This document shows positions 2,393 to 24,980 of a DNA stretch of 29,299 nt, one piece after another. The stretch spans positions 1-29,299 of IMG/VR virus record IMGVR_UViG_3300008448_007227; one strand, written 5' to 3'. This DNA comes from a virus. The translations under genes were made by a program, and so were the position numbers. How positions within the stretch are numbered: the stretch's first letter is position 1; each line of letters begins with the position of its first letter. Under the pieces are notes generated by a model. The model made no database searches. It saw nothing but the letters and a program-made list of their open reading frames with translations, and was not told the origin of the DNA.

Positions 2393-3372
2393 AAATAGCT
2401 TTTCTTACAGAAATGGGTTTTATAGGAAAGATAAATGAAGACTTTCCTAATATGAGAACCGAGTTTGCTTGGATGCACGCTCTAGATGCAGATCACTACA
2501 ATATAAGATCTTTTGAATCTATTAAAGATTATGATCATGTATTCATAATATTTCCAAAAGGAGAAGTATATCTAAATTCAATAGGACTAAAACTCATAAA
2601 CAAAACCAATCCAGTTTCAGATATACTAAGATCTAATCTAGTTAATAAATTAAAATCTAAGAATAAAAAAGTTCACTTTGTACAAGAAGGTCCTCATTGG
2701 TTGTGGAATGATTATGAAATTTATGATCAAATATACTTTTACAATTTAATACAAGAATGTGATTCTATATTTGCCCATAATCAATCAGATACACAATATT
2801 ACAAAGGATTATTTCCAAACAAAGAAGTAAATACTATTCAGACTTTAATGATAGAAAAAAATGTCTCTTCAATAGTCCCTACTAAAGAAGACTTATGTAT
2901 CATTGGAGGAAACTTTGCTAGATGGTATGGGGGTTTTGAGAGTTATATAGTAGCATCTAAGTTCTCTACTCCTATATATGTTCAAGATTCACATGCTAAG
3001 AGAGACGCAGAACAGATGATGGATGGATTGAATCATTTACCAAGAATGGAATGGCTAGATTGGATGAAACAATTATCCAAGTTTAAATACGCAGTACATC
3101 TAATGCCTACAGTAGCTGCTGGAACATTTAGTTTAAATTGTGCTTATTTTGGAATACCTTGTATAGGAAATGAAGATGTAGATACTCAAAATATATGTCA
3201 TCCTCACCTGTCTGTTAAAGTTGGAGATGTAGAAAAAGCTTTGCACTTAGTAAAAATGCTAAAAGAGAACGAAAACTTTTATAAAGGATGTTCAGAAGCT
3301 GCAAAAGAAAATTATAAAAAATACTATTCAATACAAACTTGGAAAGAGAATATTTTAAAAATATTAAAATGA
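2389..3372 (+). CDS. Putative GT-B glycosyltransferase
   Basis: A 327-aa soluble protein that reads like a GT-B (group 1) transferase. The N-terminal half starts 'MKIAFLTEMGF' and alternates strands and helices. The C-terminal half holds 'GTFSLNCAYFGIPCIGNEDVDTQ' (about residues 246-268), which resembles the nucleotide-sugar-binding region of GT4-like enzymes (small residues, then G-x-P, then an acidic residue). The terminal 'SIQTWKENILKIL' helix is also typical of that group. It overlaps both neighbours by ATGA, so translation is probably coupled. Donor and acceptor are unknown. The call rests on fold-like motifs rather than an identified close relative. Confidence 0.6.
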   Translation: MKIAFLTEMGFIGKINEDFPNMRTEFAWMHALDADHYNIRSFESIKDYDHVFIIFPKGEVYLNSIGLKLINKTNPVSDILRSNLVNKLKSKNKKVHFVQEGPHWLWNDYEIYDQIYFYNLIQECDSIFAHNQSDTQYYKGLFPNKEVNTIQTLMIEKNVSSIVPTKEDLCIIGGNFARWYGGFESYIVASKFSTPIYVQDSHAKRDAEQMMDGLNHLPRMEWLDWMKQLSKFKYAVHLMPTVAAGTFSLNCAYFGIPCIGNEDVDTQNICHPHLSVKVGDVEKALHLVKMLKENENFYKGCSEAAKENYKKYYSIQTWKENILKILK

Positions 3373-3776
3373 AAAATGTTAAATGTGGAAATAATGTCAG
3401 CATATCTCATTTCACAAATTTATATGGATGTGAATTAGGAGATAATGTATTTGTTGGACCATTTGTAGAAATTCAATCGAATGTTAAAATAGGAAAAAAT
3501 AGTAGAGTCTCATCCCATTCATTTATATGTTCTAGTGTAGAAATAGGAGAGGATTGTTTTATTGCCCATGGAGTTATGTTTACAAATGATAAGTTCACAG
3601 AGAATAGAGATGGGTGGATAGAAAGAAAGACGGTAGTAGGAAATAATGTAAGAATAGGATCTAATGCAACAATATTACCAGTTAAAATAGGTGATGGTGC
3701 AGTAATCGGAGCAGGCGCAGTGGTTACTAAAGATGTACTACCAAATCAAATAGTTAAAGGAAATCCAGCAAAATGA
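3369..3776 (+). CDS. WlbB/QdtC/FdtC-like left-handed beta-helix sugar N-acyltransferase
   Basis: Hexapeptide-repeat acyltransferase predicted to move an acetyl (or other acyl) group from its CoA ester onto the 3-amino group of a nucleotide-linked aminosugar. Repeats of the I-G-x-x-x-x type run through most of the 135 residues. 'AHGVMFTND' (about 66-74) and the ending 'VVTKDVLPNQIVKGNPAK' are characteristic of the WbpD/WlbB and QdtC/FdtC group. I start it at ATG 3369, which overlaps the previous stop as ATGA; a longer reading from 3339 would add ten non-conserved residues. It ends immediately after the GNPAK motif, lacking the short tail of many relatives. The likely partners are the oxidoreductase at 6468 and the aminotransferase at 7477. 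Confidence 0.85.
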   Translation: MKNVKCGNNVSISHFTNLYGCELGDNVFVGPFVEIQSNVKIGKNSRVSSHSFICSSVEIGEDCFIAHGVMFTNDKFTENRDGWIERKTVVGNNVRIGSNATILPVKIGDGAVIGAGAVVTKDVLPNQIVKGNPAK

Positions 3777-4552: not shown

Positions 4553-5480
4553 TGCAATTATTACTGGAGGTGCTGGATTTGTTGCTTCTCATTTAGCAGA
4601 GGCTATTGAAGATAAATACGATAAGATTTATCTTATTGATAATTTAGTTCGCACAGAAAGTCTTAGAAATATAGAACATTTATCTAAACACAAATTTATT
4701 TTTATAGAGGCAGACATTTCTAAATTTGATTTTAATACTATAGATGCAAGTGTAGTATATCATTTAGCTGCTACAAGAATTAATAGATGCGCAAAGTATC
4801 CTGATGAAGGACACACCTTTTTAGCAGACGGAGGATTTAATGTTGTAAAACATTGTGCAGAAAATGGATTAAAACTTTTCTTTTCGTCTACTGCTTCTGT
4901 TTATAACAATCCTAAAAAATTTCCAATAGAAGAAACAGATCCATGTGAACCTCACACTATTTATGGAGCAGCAAAATATTACACAGAAAGTCTAATGAGA
5001 TCTTTTGCAAAGACTCATGGTCTGAAGTATTCTATCTGTAGATTTTTCTCTGTGTATGGAGTTAGAATGGATTGCGAAGGAGCCTATACAGAGATTATTT
5101 TTAATTGGCTAAATGCTATTAACAGAGGAGAGAGAAAAGTAACAGTATTTGGAAATCCTAATGAAAAAGTATTAGATTTAGTTTATGTTAAAGATATTGT
5201 AAATGCTATTCTAAAAGTAACTGAGGTGTGGGACAATGAAGTGTACAATGTATCAACAGAGCAAGGTGTCACTATCACTGATCTTATTAAAACTATTTCA
5301 GAAACACTAAATGTAAATTTAGAAGTAGAAACTAAGCCTGAGAATAGAACAGATATAGAAAAGAAAAGAGTGGGTTCTGTAGAAAGACTTAGAGGAATAG
5401 GATGGGAACCAATATATGATTTATCAAAAGGAATAAAAGAAACATACGAATGGATAAATTACCTAAATGGTCAGAAATAA
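4545..5480 (+). CDS. NDP-sugar epimerase/dehydratase (extended SDR, GalE-like)
   Basis: NAD(P)-dependent extended short-chain dehydrogenase acting on a nucleotide sugar. The dinucleotide motif is 'GGAGFVASH' (8-16). The active-site segment 'FFSSTASVY' leads to the YxxxK pair Tyr140/Lys144 ('YGAAK'). 'RFFSVYG' and 'DLVYVKDI' are the usual substrate-side motifs of UDP-glucose/UDP-GlcNAc 4-epimerases. At 311 aa the length is normal. It lacks the TDE triad of RmlB-type 4,6-dehydratases, so a C4 epimerase is more likely. The upstream overlap is 8 bases, and the downstream acetyltransferase overlaps its 3' end by 31 bases. Confidence 0.85.
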   Translation: MNNAIITGGAGFVASHLAEAIEDKYDKIYLIDNLVRTESLRNIEHLSKHKFIFIEADISKFDFNTIDASVVYHLAATRINRCAKYPDEGHTFLADGGFNVVKHCAENGLKLFFSSTASVYNNPKKFPIEETDPCEPHTIYGAAKYYTESLMRSFAKTHGLKYSICRFFSVYGVRMDCEGAYTEIIFNWLNAINRGERKVTVFGNPNEKVLDLVYVKDIVNAILKVTEVWDNEVYNVSTEQGVTITDLIKTISETLNVNLEVETKPENRTDIEKKRVGSVERLRGIGWEPIYDLSKGIKETYEWINYLNGQK

Positions 5481-5902
5481 AAAATGAAGTAGGTCATAAG
5501 TACAATGACTTCTGCATATTAAGAGGAAAAGAAAATATCTTTTTGGGCGATGATGTGTGGATAGGATATTTTACACTATTAGATGGTAGTGCTAAATTAG
5601 AAATAGGATCAAAAGTTGCCATATCTTCAGGAGTTCACATATATACACATGATACCTCTTTTCACAAAGCTATGAATACTCCTAAATTACCAGAAGGAGC
5701 GCATGTACTAAGAGCGCCAGTTAAGATAGGTAACAACGTTCAAATAGGAGCAAACTCAATAATACTACCTGGGGTTACTATAGGTGATAATGTTATAATA
5801 GGAGCTCTGTCTTTAGTAAATAAGGATATTCCTTCTAATAGTATAGCAGTAGGAAATCCATGTAAAGTAATAAAAAATATAGAAAATGAAAAGATTAACT
5901 GA
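5450..5902 (+). CDS. Hexapeptide-repeat (LbH) acetyltransferase, maltose/galactoside O-acetyltransferase-like
   Basis: A 150-aa left-handed beta-helix acyltransferase. Hexad repeats cover about residues 28-60 and 92-130. The catalytic-type histidine lies in 'IYTHDTSF' (His67), as in the galactoside/maltose O-acetyltransferase and NodL group. The terminal 'SIAVGNPCKVIKN' is the common LbH closing motif. It therefore differs from the acyltransferase at 3369, which has the HGVMFTND motif instead, and may acetylate a hydroxyl of a sugar or of the finished glycan. Only the start at 5450 leaves the first hexads intact, so the 31-base overlap with the epimerase gene seems real. It overlaps the next gene by 17 bases. 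Confidence 0.85.
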   Translation: MDKLPKWSEIKNEVGHKYNDFCILRGKENIFLGDDVWIGYFTLLDGSAKLEIGSKVAISSGVHIYTHDTSFHKAMNTPKLPEGAHVLRAPVKIGNNVQIGANSIILPGVTIGDNVIIGALSLVNKDIPSNSIAVGNPCKVIKNIENEKIN

Positions 5903-6467: not shown

Positions 6468-7472
6468 ATGATAAAAGTTTGTTTAATAGGATACGGTTAT
6501 TGGGGGAAAAATTTATTAAGGAATTTATCTTCTTTAGATAATTGTAAAGTTGAATGTGTTTGTGAATTAAATAAAAACACTCAAGATAAAATAAAATCTT
6601 TATACCCTAATATAGAGATAGTATCTAATTATGATGATGTATTTAAAAATTATAATGTAGATGCTGTAGTAATAGCTACTCCTACTCATACACATTTTAA
6701 TTTAGCAAAAAAAGCATTAGACAATAATAAGCATGTCTTAGTAGAAAAGCCCTTCACTACCTCTGTAGAAGAGGCTGAATCTCTAATAGATTTATCCATT
6801 AGTAAAAATTTAACACTAATGGTAGATCACACATTTTTATATAGCGGAGCAGTAGAAACAATAAAAGATTTAGTAAAAACAGATACTATAGGAAAACTAA
6901 AGTATTTCGACTCCACTAGAATTAATTTAGGATTAATACAATCTGATGTGAATGTTTTATGGGATTTGGCACCGCATGATTTATCTATATTGTCTTATAT
7001 TCAAAATGAGGATCCAATAAGCGTAACAGCTACCGGAGTATCACATACAAATAATCAAATAGAGAATATAGCATATATGACTATAAACTATCCATCAGGT
7101 TTTATAGCTCATTTAAATTGTTCATGGTCATCACCAGTAAAAGTAAGAACAACTTTAATAGGCGGAGATAAAAAAATGATTGTGTATGATGATATAAATC
7201 CTACAGAAAAAGTAAAGGTCTACGATTCAGGATTTGATTTTAAAAATGATGAAGATAAATCTAAAATATATGTAGACTATAGAATAGGAGATATCTATAT
7301 ACCTAAATTGAAAACAGATGAACCTCTAAGAAAAATGTTGCAAGACTTTATAAATTCAATATGGTTCTCTAATATTCCGGTATCAAATTATAATATAGGA
7401 TTAAAAACAGTTAAGATACTAGAAGCATCACAAAAATCTATAAAACAAAATAGTAAACAAATATTAATATAA
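6468..7472 (+). CDS. Gfo/Idh/MocA-family sugar oxidoreductase (WlbA/WbpB-like)
   Basis: NAD(P)-dependent oxidoreductase of 334 aa acting on nucleotide-linked sugars, probably at C3. The Rossmann motif is 'IGYGYWGKN' (about 7-15), with the family's 'VEKPFTTS' lysine-containing motif (Glu93-Lys94-Pro95). 'WDLAPHDLSI' (about 165-174) matches the active-site D-x-G/A-x-H-x-x-D pattern of WlbA/WbpB and of 3-ketosugar reductases. The PLP aminotransferase that starts four bases after its stop makes a 3-oxidation then 3-amination pair likely, as in UDP-GlcNAc3NA synthesis. A 3-keto reductase role, as in deoxysugar pathways, is the alternative. Confidence 0.83.
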   Translation: MIKVCLIGYGYWGKNLLRNLSSLDNCKVECVCELNKNTQDKIKSLYPNIEIVSNYDDVFKNYNVDAVVIATPTHTHFNLAKKALDNNKHVLVEKPFTTSVEEAESLIDLSISKNLTLMVDHTFLYSGAVETIKDLVKTDTIGKLKYFDSTRINLGLIQSDVNVLWDLAPHDLSILSYIQNEDPISVTATGVSHTNNQIENIAYMTINYPSGFIAHLNCSWSSPVKVRTTLIGGDKKMIVYDDINPTEKVKVYDSGFDFKNDEDKSKIYVDYRIGDIYIPKLKTDEPLRKMLQDFINSIWFSNIPVSNYNIGLKTVKILEASQKSIKQNSKQILI

Positions 7473-7476
7473 GAAT

Positions 7477-8643
7477 ATGAGTACAAAAATACCTTTAGGT
7501 AAACCTTATTTAAATACTGAAAATATATTAGAAGAAATTAGAAAAGTATTAGATACAAAATGGATCAGCGGTGGACCTACTATTGCTAAGTTTGAAGAAG
7601 AAGTTAAGACATATATAGGAGGGGGATTTCCTGTAGCTGTATCAAATGGTACTATAGCAATAGATATGTCGTTGTTAAGACTAAATAACGGTGAGAGATA
7701 CAAATTAGAAGATGAAATAATAGTTCCTTCTTGGAGTTGGGTAGCAACTGGATTTTCACCTATAAATGTTGGTGCAACTCCTGTATGGTGTGATGTCAAT
7801 GAATATGGCGTTGTAGATGCAGAAGAACTTGAAAAGTTAATAACAGTTAATACAAAAGCAATCATTATAGTTCATCAAATGGGTGTCCCATGTGATCTAG
7901 ATAAGATAAATGAACTATCAGAAAAATATAATATTCCTATTGTTGAAGATGCAGCTTGTGGATTCGGTGCAGAATTTAAAAATAAGAGAATTGGAAACAG
8001 CAGAAATTTAGTAACGTTTTCTTTACAAGCAAGAAAGTGTTTAACAACAGGAGAAGGCGGATTAGTAATAGGAAGGAATTCAGAAGACGCAGAATGGTTT
8101 AAATCTTATAGAGCTTTTGGAACTAGTGTATCTCCTTTAGAAAGAGATAAGGCTCAATTCTTACTTAAAGAACAATTTAACATAGTAGGATCTAATTTTA
8201 AGATAAGTGATATAACAGCAGCTGTAGGTTTAGCTCAATTAAAAACTTTCGATGAAGAAGTAATTAAAAGAGATAAAGCTGGAATCAACTATAATAAATT
8301 AGTTGTAGAGCATCTATCAGAATATGCTGAAGTAGCTAACATAGTTCCTGATTATTGTACAAGATATAATTGGCAAAATTACCACATTTTATTAAATAGT
8401 AATATAAATAGAGACTTAGTCGTTGATAGATTAAGAAAAGAAGGTATAGGGTGTAAATGGGATATACAATGCATTCATATAGAGCCTGTGTTTAATAAAA
8501 AATACGAAAGCATAATTTTACCAGGATCTATGAAATTTCATAATCACGGATTGTGGCTACCTTTCTTTGCAGAAATTTCTGATGAAGAACAACTCTTTGT
8601 TATTAATACACTTAAAAAAATAATAAAAGAAATAGTAGCTTAA
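7477..8643 (+). CDS. DegT/DnrJ/EryC1 PLP-dependent sugar aminotransferase
   Basis: A 388-aa aminotransferase that would convert a keto nucleotide-sugar to an amino sugar, usually with glutamate as donor. 'VSNGTIAIDM' corresponds to the PLP-phosphate-binding SGT segment. 'PIVEDAACGFGAEF' carries the Asp that contacts the pyridine nitrogen. 'QARKCLTTGEGG' keeps the Schiff-base Lys187, in contrast to the His-His pair of the dehydratase at 1031, so this copy should be a true aminotransferase. It lies between the Gfo/Idh oxidoreductase and two transferases. Its stop TAA shares its last base with the next ATG. The product is most likely a 3-amino sugar, judged from context. Confidence 0.88.
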   Translation: MSTKIPLGKPYLNTENILEEIRKVLDTKWISGGPTIAKFEEEVKTYIGGGFPVAVSNGTIAIDMSLLRLNNGERYKLEDEIIVPSWSWVATGFSPINVGATPVWCDVNEYGVVDAEELEKLITVNTKAIIIVHQMGVPCDLDKINELSEKYNIPIVEDAACGFGAEFKNKRIGNSRNLVTFSLQARKCLTTGEGGLVIGRNSEDAEWFKSYRAFGTSVSPLERDKAQFLLKEQFNIVGSNFKISDITAAVGLAQLKTFDEEVIKRDKAGINYNKLVVEHLSEYAEVANIVPDYCTRYNWQNYHILLNSNINRDLVVDRLRKEGIGCKWDIQCIHIEPVFNKKYESIILPGSMKFHNHGLWLPFFAEISDEEQLFVINTLKKIIKEIVA

Positions 8644-10480: not shown

Positions 10481-11445
10481 TGAGTACTAAGACTAAATTG
10501 GTAGTAGCAGATATGTATAGAGCGAAGAATAAATTAGCATTCTTTGCAATGCATCAAATATTGAATAGACTTCCAGAATTTGATATAGAATTCCATATAA
10601 TATGGGATGATCCAAGATATGAAGACGAATGGACTGAGAAAATAAATAATTTAGATTGTAAAACAACGTCTTATTCAAAAGAGATGTTAAACAATTACTG
10701 TAGAGAACTTGGAATTAGCGAAGATAGAATAGAATCATTTGATAAATTTAAATCAATATACTTTATTATTCATGGACACTATCTAAAAAATAAAAGTATA
10801 TCAAATTATTATTTAATCTATGATGATGATATTATTTTAAAAGAAGATATTCAAGAGTTTAAAGATTGCTTAAAAAATGAAGTGCCGTGTCTTATAGCAG
10901 AGCCAATGAATGCAGGTTGTGATAAAGTACTATTTAATCAACTTCTAAATTTATATGGAGGACAAGAAGCTTATAACTATTATCTAAGTGTAAATCCATC
11001 AATGCTAGGATTTAATGCAGGTATACAAGGTATAAGTTTAGATATGTATGAAGATTTTTTAGATCCAGAATATTTTAAATACTTATTAGATTTATTTAAC
11101 TATAGAGGAATATTCAATGAAGACGGAAGAGAAATAACAGGTCCAGAACGAACAGCTATAGATACTCAACAGCAATCTTTTTTTGGTATTATGAATATAA
11201 TAAGATCTAAAAAGCAACCTGTTATATTAGATCCACAAAAATATTTTATATGTCCTAACTGGGGATATCATCCAATTTATGGAGAGATAAATTCTCAAAA
11301 TGAATATAACGGATGGGATATTAATATGAAATCTAAAATAGTACACTTTATAGGACATACTGTACTAGAAGGAGTTTATTATGGTAAGCCAAAAATGTAT
11401 CATCAATTAGTTGACGAGTATTTAAAAAAGAATAATATAGTATGA
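10480..11445 (+). CDS. GT-A glycosyltransferase with DDD metal-binding motif
   Basis: A 321-aa predicted nucleotide-sugar transferase. 'YYLIYDDDIILKED' (Asp115-117) is a hydrophobic strand followed by a DxD-type triad, and the C-terminal 'KIVHFIGHT' (about residues 286-294) recalls the H-F-x-G metal-ligand motif of GT8-like retaining transferases. I cannot assign the CAZy family with certainty. It has no membrane helix. It ends with an ATGA overlap into the RmlB-like dehydratase, and base composition begins to rise in G+C after this gene. Confidence 0.65.
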   Translation: MSTKTKLVVADMYRAKNKLAFFAMHQILNRLPEFDIEFHIIWDDPRYEDEWTEKINNLDCKTTSYSKEMLNNYCRELGISEDRIESFDKFKSIYFIIHGHYLKNKSISNYYLIYDDDIILKEDIQEFKDCLKNEVPCLIAEPMNAGCDKVLFNQLLNLYGGQEAYNYYLSVNPSMLGFNAGIQGISLDMYEDFLDPEYFKYLLDLFNYRGIFNEDGREITGPERTAIDTQQQSFFGIMNIIRSKKQPVILDPQKYFICPNWGYHPIYGEINSQNEYNGWDINMKSKIVHFIGHTVLEGVYYGKPKMYHQLVDEYLKKNNIV

Positions 11446-12398
11446 CAAAGGTAGTTTACGTAACAGGTTGTTTTGGACTTATAGGAAGTCACATAACAAG
11501 AGCATGTTTAGAAAAAGGTTGGTACGTTAAAGGAGTTGACTCATTGACTTATGCAGCTAATGAAGATTTGATAGAAGAATTCTGTTTCTATGATAAGTTC
11601 TCTCTTGTAAAAGATGATATAAATAATCTTAAGTTTTTATATGAGTGCGACTATATTATTAATACTGCAGCAGAAACACATGTAGGTAATTCAATTGCCA
11701 ATTCAGATAAGTTTGTATCTTCTAATATTAACGGAGTTCATAACTTACTTGAGCTATTAAGAAACTATAGACAAGAAACAATTAAGGTTCCTATCTTACT
11801 CCATTTCTCAACAGATGAAGTGTATGGTGATATTGAAGATGGTACTCATAATGAAAAAGATCTTCTTAAACCTTCTAATCCATATTCAGCAACTAAAGCT
11901 GCAGCTGATCAATTAATATTGGCGTGGGGTAGAACATATAAAATACCGTATGTAATTGTAAGACCAACCAATAACTATGGAGTAGGTCAATATGTAGAGA
12001 AACTTATACCTAAAGCATGTAAGTATCTATCATTAAATAGAAAGATACCACTTCATAATGGAGGATCTCCAATACGTAACTGGCTTCATGCAGCAGATAC
12101 CGCTCAAGCTGTGATTACTATAGTTGAGTCTGGTGTACAAAATGAAATATTCAATATCGCAGGTGGTTATGAGCAAAGTAATTTATCCACTGTAGAGAAA
12201 GTTATACATAATTATACTGGATTAAGTACATTTGATATAAATGAATATATTGATACAGACTACTCAAGACCTGGTCAAGACGTAAGATATGCTTTAGATG
12301 ATAGTAAGTTAAGAAGTCTTGGTTGGGAACCAAAAAAACAATTTGACTCAGAAATAAAAGAAATTGTACAGTATTACAAATCAAAGTTTATATGGTAA
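11442..12398 (+). CDS. RmlB-like NDP-hexose 4,6-dehydratase
   Basis: Extended SDR predicted to turn an NDP-hexose, classically dTDP-glucose, into the 4-keto-6-deoxy intermediate. It has GxxGxxG at Gly9/12/15, the diagnostic 'STDEVYGD' with Thr124-Asp125-Glu126, and YxxxK at Tyr148/Lys152 ('YSATK'). 'NNYGVGQYVEKLIPKA' and 'PIRNWLHAAD' are close to the RmlB forms. At 318 aa it is slightly shorter than typical RmlB (about 340-360). It lacks the TGHTGFKG motif of CDP-glucose dehydratase RfbG. It would feed both the RfbH-like enzyme at 1031 and the aminotransferase branch. Whether its base is dTDP, CDP or UDP is open. Confidence 0.85.
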   Translation: MTKVVYVTGCFGLIGSHITRACLEKGWYVKGVDSLTYAANEDLIEEFCFYDKFSLVKDDINNLKFLYECDYIINTAAETHVGNSIANSDKFVSSNINGVHNLLELLRNYRQETIKVPILLHFSTDEVYGDIEDGTHNEKDLLKPSNPYSATKAAADQLILAWGRTYKIPYVIVRPTNNYGVGQYVEKLIPKACKYLSLNRKIPLHNGGSPIRNWLHAADTAQAVITIVESGVQNEIFNIAGGYEQSNLSTVEKVIHNYTGLSTFDINEYIDTDYSRPGQDVRYALDDSKLRSLGWEPKKQFDSEIKEIVQYYKSKFIW

Positions 12399-14173
12399 AA
12401 GTAAGTGACGTTATCGCAGACTATCTAAAAGAGAAAGGTGTAGAAGTAGTATTCGGTATTATTGGATCTGCTAACTCTCATATCTTTGATTCTATTAATA
12501 AATTAGGTTACACTAAAATCATTAATACACATCATGAGCAGGCAGCAGTGCTTGCAATGGGTGCATACTATAGAGCATCCGGTAAATTATCTGCTGCCAT
12601 AGTTACTGCAGGAGGTGGATCAACTAATGCTGTTACAGGAGTTGTAAGTAACTGGGCAGACTCTGTACCTGGTATTATTATCTCAGGACAAGAGAACTAT
12701 AACTATGTAAGTACACAAGAAACATTGAGAATGTATGGTACTCAAGGATTAAATATAACTAAGATGGTATCAGAGGTAACTAAGAAAGCAGTGGCCTTTG
12801 ATGATCAAATGAGTATCTATAAAGTATTAGAAGATCTTGATAAAGAAACAATATCAGGTAGGCCTGGCCCTGTATGGTTAGATGTTCCTATGAACTTACA
12901 AGCAAAAATGGTAGAGAAGAGAGATTGGAACTTCTACTCTAAAGCACTTAAACATGTATATGTTGATGACATTATTGATGCCATAAACCAATCAGAAAGA
13001 CCTGTTATTATTGGAGGAAATGGTATTAGACTTTCAGGAGCTAAAGATATATTTAGACAGTTTGTTAACTATGCTAGAGTTCCTGTATTGCTTAGTTGGT
13101 CTGGTATAGACTTGCTTGATGATAACAATGAATACTATTTTGGTAGGTTTGGTTTGTATGGACAAAGAGCAGCAAACTTCATCGTACAAAATGCAGACAC
13201 TATTATTGTATTGGGAAGTAGGTTAGCACTACCACAAGTAGGTTATGACTTCAGTCAATTTGCAAGAGGCGCTAAAATAATTGTGATTGATATAGATGAA
13301 CTTGAAGCTACTAAATATAAAATACATCAACACATAAAAGCAGATTGTTATGATACTATATACAATCTTATAGCTAAGACATTTATGCTATGGGGATATA
13401 AGAAAGAGTGGATGGCATATTGTCAAGTAATGAAGAATAAGTATCCTCTAGTAGAAAACTATCATGAAGATAATGGATACCTGAACTCTTATAGGTTCAT
13501 AACTAAGATGTCAGACTATTTGAAAGACGATCATATAGTGGTAACTGATATGGGAACAGCTTTATTGAGTGGACATCAGAATATAAAGCTTAAACCTAAC
13601 CAGACCATGTTTACGTCACAAGGTCTTGGTGAGATGGGTTATGGCCTTCCTGCTGCATTAGGTGCGGCTCTTGCATGCCCAAACAAGCCTGTGCTATGTA
13701 TGAATTGTGATGGTGGAATGATGATGAACTTGCAAGAACTTCATACAATTATAGAAAATAATCTTCCTATTAAGATTATCATCTTCAACAATGATGGATA
13801 TCTGATGATCAAACATACTCAGAAGATGTTATTTAAAGGAGACTATGTTAGTGTAAATAAAAAGACAGGAATAGGCTTACCTAAGTTTGATAGAGTTATG
13901 CCGGCTTTTGGGTATAAGTATTATGATCTCAAGTCATGGGATAACTTTGATCAAGTTATGTCTTATTTTATAAATGAACCAGGTCCTGCTTGTCTAGAAG
14001 TATTTATGGATCCAGAACAAGATTTTATACCTAAAGTTAAAGGCGTATTGAGAGAGGATGGAAGTATATTCCCTCCACCAATTGAAGAGATGTCTCCATT
14101 ACTTTCTTTAGAAGATGTAAAACAAAACATGGTAATAGAGATTAGTGAAAAATCTAAATTAATTAAGAGATGA
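12392..14173 (+). CDS. Thiamine-diphosphate enzyme, acetolactate synthase-like (YerE-type candidate)
   Basis: A 593-aa ThDP enzyme with the three expected domains. The Pyr domain carries the cofactor-activating Glu49 in 'NTHHEQAA' and 'GGGSTNAVTGVVSNWADSVP' (compare GPGATN in acetolactate synthase). A central TPP_enzyme_M-type domain covers about 190-330. In the PP domain the GDG motif reads Cys439-Asp440-Gly441 followed by NN about 25 residues later. Such enzymes decarboxylate a 2-oxo acid and transfer the acyl group. In a sugar operon beside a 3-deoxysugar enzyme, the closest precedent is YerE, which adds a two-carbon branch to a 4-keto-3,6-dideoxyhexose. An acetolactate synthase for metabolism is the alternative, but no other amino-acid genes are present. 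Confidence 0.82.
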   Translation: MVKVSDVIADYLKEKGVEVVFGIIGSANSHIFDSINKLGYTKIINTHHEQAAVLAMGAYYRASGKLSAAIVTAGGGSTNAVTGVVSNWADSVPGIIISGQENYNYVSTQETLRMYGTQGLNITKMVSEVTKKAVAFDDQMSIYKVLEDLDKETISGRPGPVWLDVPMNLQAKMVEKRDWNFYSKALKHVYVDDIIDAINQSERPVIIGGNGIRLSGAKDIFRQFVNYARVPVLLSWSGIDLLDDNNEYYFGRFGLYGQRAANFIVQNADTIIVLGSRLALPQVGYDFSQFARGAKIIVIDIDELEATKYKIHQHIKADCYDTIYNLIAKTFMLWGYKKEWMAYCQVMKNKYPLVENYHEDNGYLNSYRFITKMSDYLKDDHIVVTDMGTALLSGHQNIKLKPNQTMFTSQGLGEMGYGLPAALGAALACPNKPVLCMNCDGGMMMNLQELHTIIENNLPIKIIIFNNDGYLMIKHTQKMLFKGDYVSVNKKTGIGLPKFDRVMPAFGYKYYDLKSWDNFDQVMSYFINEPGPACLEVFMDPEQDFIPKVKGVLREDGSIFPPPIEEMSPLLSLEDVKQNMVIEISEKSKLIKR

Positions 14174-15018
14174 TTAAAGCTGGAATTATAGGAACAGGCA
14201 ATATTGGTACTGACTTACTATTGAAAATACTGAAGACAAACTATATTAAACCTGTAATATTTGCAGGCCGTAGAATGGATTCAGATGGTATCAGAATAGC
14301 GCAATCAAAAGGTATAGAAGTTACAGATAAAGGTATTCAATACTTTATTGATAATCCTAATTGTTGTGATGTAGTATATGATTGCACAAGTGCAGCAGAC
14401 GCTAAAGAACATGCTAAGGTATTTTCTGAACAGGGGATTAAAGTGATAGACTTGACTCCTGCTAAAGTTGGACCTTTGTGTGTACCTAGTATTAATTCTA
14501 GAGTTATATTAGATTCTGGTAATGTCAATATGATTACATGTGGCGGTCAAGCATCAATGCCTATGCTTAATCTTATATCTAAGTATTGTGATAAGTTAGA
14601 CTATATAGAAGTTGTATCTCAAATTGCATCTAAGAGCGCAGGTATGGCAACAAGGATTAATATCGATTCTTATATTCATACCACAGAAATGGCCATAAAA
14701 CAATTCACTAAATGTGATAATTGTAAAGTGATATTGAATTTAAATCCTGCTGAACCATGCGTTGATATGCAAACTACTATGTTCTTGAAGTTTCAAAATA
14801 TTGATTTTGAAGATCTAGTTGAAGAGATCTATAAGAAGATTAAGGAACTAAAGACATATATACCACATTATGAATTGGTATTGCCACCAGTTATTAATGA
14901 TGATATACTTGTGTTGAGTATCAAAGTGAAAGGATCTGGTGATTATTTACCAGAGTATGCAGGTAACTTAGACATTATTAATTGTGCTGCAATTGAAGTA
15001 ACTAAAAATTTATTGTAA
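14170..15018 (+). CDS. Acylating acetaldehyde dehydrogenase (MhpF/DmpF-like)
   Basis: Predicted to interconvert acetaldehyde plus CoA and acetyl-CoA with NAD(H). 'IIGTGNIGTDLL' (7-18) is the dinucleotide motif. The catalytic thiolate is Cys124 in 'MITCGGQAS', and 'QIASKSAGMATRINID' and 'ILNLNPAEP' are family-specific segments. It is 282 aa against about 310 for MhpF/DmpF, with shortening spread through the protein rather than a lost domain. It directly precedes its usual partner aldolase (TAATG coupling), and in degradative operons the two form a channelling complex. Here the company is sugar-biosynthetic, so a biosynthetic direction is likely. Confidence 0.88.
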   Translation: MIKAGIIGTGNIGTDLLLKILKTNYIKPVIFAGRRMDSDGIRIAQSKGIEVTDKGIQYFIDNPNCCDVVYDCTSAADAKEHAKVFSEQGIKVIDLTPAKVGPLCVPSINSRVILDSGNVNMITCGGQASMPMLNLISKYCDKLDYIEVVSQIASKSAGMATRINIDSYIHTTEMAIKQFTKCDNCKVILNLNPAEPCVDMQTTMFLKFQNIDFEDLVEEIYKKIKELKTYIPHYELVLPPVINDDILVLSIKVKGSGDYLPEYAGNLDIINCAAIEVTKNLL

Positions 15019-16016
15019 TGAGTAAGATCATAATAACAGATTCATCTTTAAGAGATGGTAACCACGCAGTCAAACATACAATTAATCTTGAACAAATAAA
15101 AAGATATTGTGAATTTGCAGATAGGGCAAGAATTCCTATTGTAGAAGTAGGGCATGGTAACGGTTTAGGAGCGTCGTCTTTATTGATTGGACAATCTCCA
15201 TATACAGATAAAGAAATATTAATTACTGCAAGAGAGAGTCTTAAAAGATCTAGACTCGGTATTCATATTATTCCTGGAATTGCTACAGTCAAAAAAGATA
15301 TAGAACAAGCAATTGATTTAGGTGTAGATGTATTTAGAATTGCAACACACTGTACTGAAGCCACTTTATCTAAGTCTCATATAGAATATTTAAAGAGTAG
15401 AGATAAAACAGTATTTGGTGTATTAATGATGAGTGCATTGGCTGATACTAAAACATTAGTAGAGAATGCTAAGACTATGGAAGAGTATGGAGCAGAGGCA
15501 ATAATCATTATGGATTCTACAGGTACATACTTACCAAAAGATGTATATGAAAGAATTGACTCATTAAAGAATAGTTTAAATATTGAAGTTGGTTTTCATG
15601 CTCACGATAATTTAGGATTGGCCACAGCAAATTCATTAACTGCTGCAAATTATGGAGCAACTTATATTGATGCATGTATTAGAGGTTTTGGAGCAGGGGC
15701 AGGCAATGCACATTTAGAAATGATCATCCCTGTATTAGAGAAGAGTGGATATGAAGTAGACATAGACTTTCAAAAAGTTATCATAGAAGCAGATAAAGTC
15801 ATGGACTATCTAGTACCTTCAGCACCGATATCTACTCCAGTTAATATCTTAACAGGATTGAATAGACTATTCTCAGGATTTGAGAAGCCTATTATCAAAG
15901 CATCTAAATTATTTGGCATAGAATATTCATCATTAATATTTGAACTTGGAAATAGAAAGTTAGTTGCTGGTCAAGAAGATCTTATATTAGAGGTAGCACA
16001 AAAGCTGAAGAAATGA
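15018..16016 (+). CDS. 4-hydroxy-2-oxovalerate aldolase-like enzyme (MhpE/DmpG, HMGL family)
   Basis: A (beta/alpha)8 aldolase of 332 aa. The N-terminal 'DSSLRDGNHAVKH' gives Arg12, Asp13 and His16, matching the catalytic residues of DmpG. 'VEVGHGNGLG' follows, the metal ligands His194 and His196 are in 'GFHAHDNLGLA', and 'GFGAGAGNAHLE' is also conserved. The C-terminal region resembles the DmpG communication domain that binds the dehydrogenase. Known homologs split 4-hydroxy-2-oxopentanoate to pyruvate and acetaldehyde, reversibly. Together with the gene before it, it could make that 2-oxo acid from acetyl-CoA and pyruvate. Its use by the ThDP enzyme upstream is my inference. Confidence 0.88.
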   Translation: MSKIIITDSSLRDGNHAVKHTINLEQIKRYCEFADRARIPIVEVGHGNGLGASSLLIGQSPYTDKEILITARESLKRSRLGIHIIPGIATVKKDIEQAIDLGVDVFRIATHCTEATLSKSHIEYLKSRDKTVFGVLMMSALADTKTLVENAKTMEEYGAEAIIIMDSTGTYLPKDVYERIDSLKNSLNIEVGFHAHDNLGLATANSLTAANYGATYIDACIRGFGAGAGNAHLEMIIPVLEKSGYEVDIDFQKVIIEADKVMDYLVPSAPISTPVNILTGLNRLFSGFEKPIIKASKLFGIEYSSLIFELGNRKLVAGQEDLILEVAQKLKK

Positions 16017-16780
16017 AGATACTAATTACAGGTGCAAATGGTTATATAGGAAGTTCTTTATATAATGCACTTAAAGATAAGTATGAAGTAACTGCTATTA
16101 GTAGAGATGATTTTAATCTAGTAGATATTGAAAGAATGATTAAGTTCTTTAATGGTAAGTATTTCGATGTAGTACTCCATTGTGCTATAGCAGGAGGAAG
16201 CAGATTAAAAGAAGATAGTTGGGAAACAATGGATATTAATTTAGCAATGTACTATAATTTATTGCAGTGCAAAGTACATTATGCAAAGTTAATCCAGTTT
16301 GGTTCAGGAGCAGAGTATGCACAAGACGATAAGCCATATGGATTTAGTAAGAGAGTTATATCTAAGTCTATAGAGAATAGAGACGGATTCTATAATCTAA
16401 GAATATATGCAGTGTTTGATGAGTTAGAGTTAGATACCAGGTTTATTAAGTCTAATCTAAAAAGATATATAAATAAAGAAGACATGCAGATACACCAAAA
16501 CAAATACATGGACTTCTTTTATATGCAAGACCTAATTAAGTTAGTAGACTATTACATACTGCATGATGGTCTACCTAAACAAGTTGATTGTACGTACGAA
16601 GACATTAAGAGTCTAAAAGAAATATGTGAGTTTATAAATACTCTTGACGATCATAAAGTGGGTATACAATACCAAGAACAAGGACTAGTAAAAGGATATG
16701 TGGGATTCAATAAAACTTTACAGTTAGACTACATAGGACTTAAACAAGGAATAATTAACACATACAATAAATTGAAATGA
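16013..16780 (+). CDS. Short NDP-sugar SDR reductase/epimerase (RmlD-like)
   Basis: A 255-aa extended-SDR-type protein. The cofactor motif is 'ITGANGYIGSS' (5-15), the active site 'QFGSGAEYAQDDKPYGFSK' has Tyr109/Lys113, and 'KYMDFFYMQDLIKLVDYY' resembles the RDF-x-Y/H-V-x-D segment. It is shorter than GalE or RmlB proteins (310 aa or more), with a reduced substrate domain, as in RmlD-like 4-keto reductases. It follows the ThDP/dehydrogenase/aldolase trio, so reduction of a keto group, perhaps on a newly attached side chain as YerD does in yersiniose synthesis, is attractive but unproven. It has ATGA junctions on both sides. Confidence 0.78.
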   Translation: MKILITGANGYIGSSLYNALKDKYEVTAISRDDFNLVDIERMIKFFNGKYFDVVLHCAIAGGSRLKEDSWETMDINLAMYYNLLQCKVHYAKLIQFGSGAEYAQDDKPYGFSKRVISKSIENRDGFYNLRIYAVFDELELDTRFIKSNLKRYINKEDMQIHQNKYMDFFYMQDLIKLVDYYILHDGLPKQVDCTYEDIKSLKEICEFINTLDDHKVGIQYQEQGLVKGYVGFNKTLQLDYIGLKQGIINTYNKLK

Positions 16781-23994: not shown

Positions 23995-24588
23995 ATGAAC
24001 AAGAAGACTAAAGACTTTATCAAATATGTCAAGAGTGAATGTAAGAAGTACGGAGTTAAGTGTGACCTACGAAATACAAAGTACGTCAAACTCTCAGGAA
24101 ATATAAAGTGCTCAGGATATTTTGATGAAGAGGTTCCGGCTTTAGTATGTTCAATGAATAGGCCAGATGCAATAGAGATCCTTGCCCACGAGTTCTGTCA
24201 CCTTACACAATGGGTAGATCAGATTGATCTTTGGAAAGGTTGCAATGTTTCTATGCCACTCGTTGATGAGTGGTTAAGTGGAGCAGAGGTTCCTAATATA
24301 AAGAAGCACTTAGGAGTTTCTAGAGATCTTGAATTAGACAATGAGAAGAGGGCAGTGAAGTTAATCAAGAAGTTTAATCTGGACATAGATGTGGACCATT
24401 ACATTAGAAAGGCTAATGCGTATGTATTTTTCTATAACAGACTATTGGCCACTAGGAAGTGGGCCACTCCACAAAATAGTCCATACACAAACCAAAGGAT
24501 AATAGAGAAAATGCCCAGATACTTTAGGGCAGACTATTCAGTCACTCCAAAAAGAATTGAAAAGGTATTTATCCAAGAAAATCTATAG
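23995..24588 (+). CDS. Zincin-like HExxH protein (putative metallopeptidase) 1
   Basis: A 197-aa putative metallopeptidase. The HExxH motif is 'ILAHEFCHLTQW' (His65-Glu66-His69). A third ligand is plausible at Glu113 or Glu117 in 'SRDLELDNEKRAVKLIKKF', the ELDxE spacing seen in IrrE/ImmA-like and related zincins. The C-terminal part ('PYTNQRIIEKMPRYFRADY') is basic and unfamiliar. No signal peptide, so it acts inside the cell or in the virion. It is followed two bases later by a second, shorter HExxH protein. Confidence 0.72.
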   Translation: MNKKTKDFIKYVKSECKKYGVKCDLRNTKYVKLSGNIKCSGYFDEEVPALVCSMNRPDAIEILAHEFCHLTQWVDQIDLWKGCNVSMPLVDEWLSGAEVPNIKKHLGVSRDLELDNEKRAVKLIKKFNLDIDVDHYIRKANAYVFFYNRLLATRKWATPQNSPYTNQRIIEKMPRYFRADYSVTPKRIEKVFIQENL

Positions 24589-24590
24589 TC

Positions 24591-24980
24591 ATGACAGATC
24601 AAATAAAGCCTACGAGAAAACATGTGAATAAGATATTTGAATGGTGTGTTAATCAATACGGCAAATCTAAGTTCAATAAGACTCTTCCTGTAGTTGAGTT
24701 CAAGAAGCCAGATTATTATACAGAAGGATGTATGGCATTCTATGATGAGATAGAGTCAGTCATATACATCAATAAGGAGCAAAATGATAACCTACCAGAG
24801 TTGGTAAATAGTATTATTCATGAGTATGTGCACTATAAACAAAACATGAAGCATTATCAGATACTTAGTTTATATTTACCTGATAATAAGAATCCTATGG
24901 AAATAGAAGCCATTAAGATTGCCAAAAGAGATACAAAAAAATGCCTTAAAGAGGTATTTGATATATCAATTTTAAAGTAA
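24591..24980 (+). CDS. Zincin-like HExxH protein (putative metallopeptidase) 2
   Basis: A 129-aa putative metallopeptidase. HExxH lies in 'SIIHEYVHYKQNM' (His77-Glu78-His81), and a Glu about 25 residues later in 'NPMEIEAIKIAKRD' (Glu104/Glu106) is a suitable third zinc ligand. The small size and H-E-Y-x-H-x-x-Q form resemble minimal SprT/minigluzincin-type domains. It directly follows another HExxH protein, to which overall similarity is low, so the pair is not a simple tandem copy. Confidence 0.72.
   Translation: MTDQIKPTRKHVNKIFEWCVNQYGKSKFNKTLPVVEFKKPDYYTEGCMAFYDEIESVIYINKEQNDNLPELVNSIIHEYVHYKQNMKHYQILSLYLPDNKNPMEIEAIKIAKRDTKKCLKEVFDISILK

Follow-up and report, generated by a model that had tools for sequence, protein, structure and literature searches.

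The viral record IMGVR_UViG_3300008448_007227 from IMG/VR, referred to here as the window and analysed over its full length of 29,299 nucleotides (nt), probably encodes a phage pathway for a nucleotide-activated sugar of the erwiniose type, branched at C4. Its core is a run of four genes for a thiamine diphosphate (ThDP)-dependent carboligase, an acylating acetaldehyde dehydrogenase (AcDH), a 4-hydroxy-2-oxopentanoate aldolase and a short-chain dehydrogenase/reductase (SDR), and two further genes are assigned to the acceptor sugar, a nucleoside diphosphate (NDP) sugar. This assignment is supported by homology, conserved gene context, conserved catalytic residues, a two-residue signature in the aldolase and one successful prediction made from that signature. 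Rare branched sugars with ten carbons have so far been seen in only a handful of surface polysaccharides from bacteria; T4-like phages from environmental DNA seem to possess nearly all the genes needed to make one. The relevant features of the window are the following.

1031-2392, + strand: RfbH/E1-type NDP-4-keto-6-deoxyglucose 3-dehydrase, 453 amino acids (aa), matching NF011936
11442-12398, + strand: RmlB-type NDP-glucose 4,6-dehydratase, 318 aa, from motifs and PDB matches
12392-14173, + strand: ThDP carboligase, YerE-like, of the JanthE/CDG type, 593 aa, matching 8rph (JanthE)
13706-13714, + strand: CDG variant of the ThDP-binding GDG motif (C439-D440-G441), the same motif as in JanthE
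14170-15018, + strand: AcDH, 282 aa, matching TIGR03215
15018-16016, + strand: 4-hydroxy-2-oxopentanoate aldolase, 332 aa, matching TIGR03217
15264-15266, + strand: codon of aldolase His83, aligned among the cluster aldolases with BphI L87 and DmpG L88
15870-15872, + strand: codon of aldolase Phe285, aligned in the same way with BphI Y290 and DmpG Y291
16013-16780, + strand: SDR, NDP-sugar ketoreductase by motifs and fold, 255 aa
16777-18060, + strand: family 2 glycosyltransferase, candidate user of the sugar, 427 aa (PF00535, 33 bits)

The four open reading frames (ORFs) at 12392-16780 and their families are those given in the first-pass annotation, which had overlooked RfbH (1031-2392) and the RmlB-type dehydratase (11442-12398). 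Adjacent ORFs of the cassette overlap by 1-7 nt, mostly at ATGA junctions, and the glycosyltransferase gene overlaps the SDR gene by ATGA, an arrangement resembling that of a translationally coupled operon. All reactions, with their direction and stereochemistry, are inferred from the gene content, as are the nucleotide that carries the sugar and the acceptor that it finally reaches. The RmlB-type enzyme would convert host-made NDP-glucose into NDP-4-keto-6-deoxyglucose, from which RfbH would remove the 3-hydroxyl group. AcDH and the aldolase would form 4-hydroxy-2-oxopentanoate, predicted to be the (4R) form, from acetyl-CoA, NADH and pyruvate, with acetaldehyde handed over between them. The ThDP enzyme would then decarboxylate this 2-oxo acid and attach the remaining acyl unit, CH3-CHOH-CH2-CO-, at C4 of the keto sugar. 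The product would have ten carbons and contain a tertiary alcohol, and its branch ketone would be reduced by the SDR before glycosyltransferases of the cluster transfer the sugar to an acceptor.

In the ThDP enzyme, the three TPP-enzyme domains PF02776, PF00205 and PF02775 were found by domain search, and the invariant catalytic glutamate is present (E49). Its best match among solved structures is 8rph, the bacterial enzyme JanthE from Janthinobacterium sp. HH01, with 585 bits, followed by 5ahk, which we take to be the YerE homologue PpYerE (250 bits), and by acetohydroxyacid synthase (AHAS) I of E. coli (246 bits). The sequence identity is 46% to JanthE as opposed to 32% to AHAS, the rare CDG motif is common to the window enzyme and JanthE, and four of the five studied active-site residues of JanthE are identical, with Y268, P293, Y297 and K567 kept as Y256, P281, Y285 and K548 and V121 replaced by T117. 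The enzyme also matches PHROG 11199, a family without an assigned function. JanthE is described as YerE-like and unusual in its CDG motif; it takes 4-hydroxy-2-oxovalerate as donor with benzaldehyde as acceptor, accepts ketones separately, and is promiscuous enough to accept pyruvate too, its physiological substrates being stated as unknown (PMC12188165). Since a ThDP enzyme that is 98.7% identical to JanthE is directly followed by AcDH and aldolase genes in Rugamonas rivuli (locus L038), 4-hydroxy-2-oxopentanoate is suggested as the native donor of JanthE. The window enzyme can thus be placed, by homology, among the YerE-like enzymes of the JanthE subtype, and acylation of a sugar ketone is predicted for it.

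The reaction itself has a precedent in ErwE from Pectobacterium atrosepticum, which couples hydroxylated 2-oxo acids, e.g., 4-hydroxy-2-oxopentanoate, to CDP-4-keto-3,6-dideoxyglucose to give erwiniose, pyruvate being unused (PMC12247030). Erwiniose has ten carbons and is branched at C4 (PMC8657720, PMC9912281). The likeness lies in the described chemistry and extends to a ThDP enzyme, a 4-hydroxy-2-oxo acid donor and a 4-keto-3,6-dideoxy acceptor; however, ErwE is bacterial and its acceptor is CDP-activated, whereas the phage set has an RmlB-type dehydratase and lacks RfbF and RfbG. YerE from Yersinia pseudotuberculosis, in yersiniose A synthesis, likewise performs a ThDP-dependent carboligation onto CDP-4-keto-3,6-dideoxyglucose (PMC12247030). 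In that system the branch has two carbons and comes from pyruvate, so that no aldolase or dehydrogenase is needed. Reduction of the branch ketone by YerF is the step expected after YerE, as it would be after the phage carboligase. With JanthE as the closest sequence and ErwE as the precedent, the idea put forward in the first-pass annotation, that a ThDP enzyme adds a four-carbon chain to a keto sugar, is supported by the sequence evidence.

Two viral scans and one genome scan yielded at least 82 viral and at least 80 bacterial loci, all chosen by the ThDP gene and referred to by L numbers where needed. The search for the same trio in other clusters, which had been proposed as a check, was fruitful: AcDH and aldolase genes lie beside the ThDP gene in 58 of the 82 viral and 73 of the 80 bacterial loci, and the order is kept across phages and many bacterial phyla. 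Since ThDP, AcDH and aldolase genes are contiguous in 55 of the 58 viral loci with all three and recur in the bacterial loci, their order is not due to chance. By their genes, the contigs with related viral loci are real phages, T4-type gp23 being found in 9 of 20 searched and Terminase_6N in 8 of 21 searched; on one 162-kb contig, genes for a DNA polymerase, GroEL, an endolysin and an exonuclease lie just upstream of the cassette. The window, a 29-kb fragment, gave no such phage hallmark in the searches made.

AcDH and aldolase were proposed earlier as partners in making 4-hydroxy-2-oxopentanoate, and both exceed the curated cut-offs of these families with their catalytic residues kept, consistent with that role. 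AcDH scores 323 bits against TIGR03215 (cut-off 282), and its nucleophile motif CGGQ aligns with 7z3s and 4jn6; the aldolase scores 332 bits against TIGR03217 (cut-off 286) and 58 bits for the DmpG_comm domain, with R17, D18, H21, H200 and H202 of DmpG all conserved. These enzymes therefore share fold families, domain and catalytic residues with DmpFG and BphIJ, which are catabolic, yet they differ at two sites, placed by DmpG numbering, where DmpG has L88 and Y291 (BphI L87 and Y290). The first site is His in all 132 cluster aldolases, and the second is Phe in 127 of them, Met in four and unreadable in one, while the catabolic-type references have Leu/Tyr in five of five. The window aldolase has H83 and F285, i.e., not the Leu87/Tyr290 pair of the catabolic (4S) type, which speaks, at the level of sequence, against the degradative-only enzyme that was earlier feared. 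In L115-L118, L151 and L076, the last from a Pelagibacter contig, the genes are arranged divergently, the aldolase being encoded on the other strand; Met at the Tyr290 site occurs in L116-L118 and L151.

An additional aldolase sample was drawn at family level, as sampling of the whole class had given few matches. None of the 35 Leu/Tyr-type aldolases has a ThDP gene within 1.5 kb, as opposed to 20 of the 27 His/Phe aldolases (one more was truncated). Six other His/Phe aldolases came from genomes already known to contain the cluster. The last one, L225, came from a genome outside the first scan, and the DNA around it turned out to be RfbF-RfbG-RfbH-ThDP-AcDH-aldolase; its ThDP enzyme is of the GDG type and only 30% identical to that of the window. 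The signature thus correctly pointed to a cluster that had escaped the ThDP scan.

BphI makes and uses (4S)-4-hydroxy-2-oxopentanoate only; Y290F abolishes this control, L87N/Y290F or L87W/Y290F reverse the stereospecificity to (4R), and the residue L89 sets the aldehyde length (PMC3962088). Because His/Phe occupies the sites at which L87N/Y290F turns (4S) into (4R), the product of the cluster aldolases is predicted to be the (4R) form, the mirror form of that used by the catabolic relatives. The L89 equivalent is Ile or Met in the cluster aldolases, not a small residue, and acetaldehyde is therefore the favoured aldehyde. Erwiniose is probably a D-gulo-octose, in which case C-7 would have the R configuration and imply a (4R) donor.

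RfbH of the window scores 458 bits against NF011936 (cut-off 423), its best PDB matches being the CDP-4-keto-6-deoxyglucose-3-dehydrase entries 3bcx and 3bb8 (327 and 323 bits). The lysine that binds pyridoxal phosphate (PLP) is replaced by His (SFYPAHHMTIGEGG), the iron-sulfur cysteines CYC...CGC are present, and the acceptor, a 3,6-dideoxy-4-keto sugar, would be the product of this enzyme. The product of 11442-12398 carries the motifs STDEVYG and YSATK and has PDB 2hun and RmlB as closest structures, while the CDP-type model TIGR02622 gives only 72 bits; it is RmlB-like and would make NDP-4-keto-6-deoxyglucose, the nucleotide carrier not being fixed by the match. Since the window is a fragment, the CDP-glucose front end of its own virus was judged through relatives. 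RfbG was found in none of the 82 viral loci and an RmlB-type gene in 64 of them, and the phages thus seem to carry the latter in place of the CDP-glucose genes RfbF and RfbG. The 80 bacterial loci contain RfbF in 55 cases, RfbH in 59 and RfbG in 23, the last by a strict blast threshold.

The most serious alternative is that the acceptor is NDP-4-keto-6-deoxyglucose itself, the product of the RmlB-type enzyme, RfbH then belonging to the synthesis of another sugar. The positions of the two genes would fit this: of the 58 viral trio loci, 42 have the RmlB-type gene directly next to the ThDP gene, and RfbH of the window is 9 kb away. Against it, matches to the RfbH model occur in 45 of 50 viral contigs (above cut-off in 20), and in many bacterial loci RfbH adjoins the trio. 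Many of the viral matches below cut-off are a shorter His-type enzyme (380-383 aa) without the iron-sulfur cysteines (SFYASHVITAGG); in the four phage examples aligned, His replaces the PLP lysine, and the enzyme resembles a 3-dehydratase such as ColD. We therefore regard a 6-deoxy acceptor as unlikely and a 3,6-dideoxy acceptor as the better assignment.

Several observations nevertheless count against the pathway as drawn here. The RmlB-type enzyme stays below the equivalog cut-off of TIGR01181 (285.9 versus 365.1 bits). RfbF exceeds its cut-off in none of 46 viral contigs, so that the host has to supply the activated sugar, and RfbH may or may not accept a dTDP sugar. An E3-type reductase for RfbH was not found in the viral loci. 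The BphI variants at L87 in the literature found are L87N and L87W, not L87H (PMC3962088). Finally, an SDR is absent nearby in 12 of 51 scorable trio loci, which makes its role the weakest link.

A different donor for the ThDP enzyme, pyruvate or another 2-oxo acid, would give a yersiniose-like two-carbon or other branch, with the product of AcDH and aldolase going elsewhere or differing in chain. The promiscuity of JanthE, which accepts pyruvate (PMC12188165), points in this direction, as do the phage loci L011 and L103-L110, which have a ThDP gene and an SDR but no AcDH or aldolase in the stretch examined. However, the trio is tightly linked in most loci, the Ile/Met at the L89 site favours acetaldehyde, and ErwE uses neither pyruvate nor acetaldehyde as donor (PMC12247030), which makes this alternative quite improbable. 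Other loci with a GDG-type ThDP gene show further variants. L122, L139, L140 and L144 lack AcDH and aldolase and have two HpcH/HpaI-family genes and a gene for an LdpA-like 4Fe-4S protein beside the ThDP gene (L122:11761-14367), and L157-L163 have a NeuB-family gene near it (e.g., L160:8913-16587), in some cases with a dehydroquinate (DHQ) synthase-like gene. The families were run on L122, L157, L159 and L160, the remaining variant loci being assigned by sequence cluster. Both HpcH/HpaI and NeuB families include enzymes that form 4-hydroxy-2-oxo acids, and their presence near the ThDP gene in loci without the trio counts in favour of the branched-sugar pathway. It looks as if donor modules are exchanged between loci, and the loci with NeuB and DHQ-synthase-like genes possibly make a cyclic or longer branch donor; however, with identities of only 37-39%, the L157 group may have a different function.

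It is very improbable that an ordinary acetolactate synthase lies beside a catabolic remnant of AcDH and aldolase in an incidental gene order. The ThDP enzyme does share its domain layout with AHAS, whose models it matches with 318-329 bits, and the breakdown of aromatic compounds is where AcDH and aldolase are most familiar. Yet it stays below every AHAS equivalog cut-off (TIGR00118 317.8 versus 538 bits), and the aldolases lack the Leu/Tyr pair. The identity as an ordinary acetolactate synthase, which had been raised at the outset as a concern, is rejected on the basis of these scores, the identities to AHAS and JanthE and the gene context. A bypass from pyruvate to acetyl-CoA for phage metabolism, in which acetaldehyde from a ThDP decarboxylase could feed AcDH, is likewise very improbable, as it offers no role for the aldolase, SDR, RfbH or glycosyltransferases and does not account for the sugar context of viral and bacterial loci.

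The assembly of the loci bears further on the branched-sugar pathway. In a quick tree of the ThDP enzymes, five phage sequences (L136, L138 and L141-L143) fall inside the bacterial clade. Aldolase and AcDH of these phages are nearest to relatives from Oxalobacteraceae (64-74%), whereas their RfbH is of the phage type, as is the RmlB-type enzyme in those that have one (62-71%); identity to bacterial RfbH is about 40%. Since this second phage lineage (L138, L142, L143 and kin) combines a bacterial-type trio with a phage-type front end, donor and acceptor modules were joined on two or more occasions, an argument for their working together. The reverse mix is found in L016, a metagenome-assembled genome of Flavobacteriaceae, where a phage-like trio stands beside bacterial RfbF, RfbG and RfbH, each above its NCBIfam cut-off; a transfer from phage to bacterium is possible.

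The SDR is of the NDP-sugar type by domain search, with the motifs TGANGYIG, SGAE and YGFSK (YxxxK), and its AlphaFold model (mean confidence, pLDDT, 93.8) has GDP-fucose synthase and GDP-heptose C4 reductase as nearest folds. Fold and motifs fit the reduction of a keto sugar, and the enzyme would reduce the branch ketone in a role like that of YerF. The proposal in the first-pass annotation that it reduces the new keto group is thus upheld as regards the type of enzyme, but weakened by the trio loci without a nearby SDR. As for the destination of the sugar, ORFs of at least 200 aa with at least four membrane spans on the cassette strand, in a crude hydropathy count, number 0 of 1172 in viral and 60 of 794 in bacterial loci. 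The phages therefore seem to bring no flippase or polymerase in these stretches, and the sugar may go onto phage proteins or DNA, or feed a host pathway. A broader proposal is possible, though rather doubtful: T4-like phages would take dTDP-glucose from the host and turn it into an activated sugar branched at C4. The front end would be of the phage type (an RmlB-type enzyme plus RfbH or the shorter His-type dehydratase), and the branch would vary with the donor module, for which AcDH/aldolase, HpcH/HpaI aldolases or NeuB could be swapped. Having no flippase or polymerase genes, the phages would attach the sugar to a phage virion protein or DNA instead of the host envelope.

The neighbourhood contains other genes as well. 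A Gfo/Idh dehydrogenase, a DegT aminotransferase of the Lys type and two hexapeptide acyltransferases are encoded in the same cluster (3339-3776, 5450-5902, 6468-7472 and 7477-8643), and would be parts of a second pathway, to an acylated amino sugar. Two neighbouring ORFs at 23995-24588 and 24591-24980 each have an HExxH zinc-protease-like motif (HEFCH, HEYVH). In the phage locus L233, a QueE-like gene (977-1768) and a GTP cyclohydrolase gene (4825-5463) lie upstream of the cassette and point to 7-deazaguanine synthesis, possibly for DNA modification.

A phage with such a pathway was not found in the literature searched or in annotated phage genomes (INPHARED), where only AHAS-like matches of at most about 31% identity occur and several records look like host contigs; ThDP relatives are nevertheless present on more than 80 viral contigs. 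The earlier remark that no such phage system has been described thus holds within these sources, while its chemistry has already been described in bacteria for erwiniose. Because ErwE already performs four-carbon branch chemistry of this kind, only the phage setting and the details are new, namely the front end with its RmlB-type enzyme, the modules brought together more than once and the two-residue signature of the aldolases. The ErwE paper of Steitz 2022 may already name the erwiniose donor enzymes. As a sequence marker for branched-sugar clusters, the two-residue signature is simple to apply, and it leads to a claim open to testing, that evolution arrived at a change of the kind by which engineers reversed BphI. 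JanthE gains a suggested native donor. The repeated joining of the same modules indicates that branched-sugar synthesis moves between phages and bacteria.

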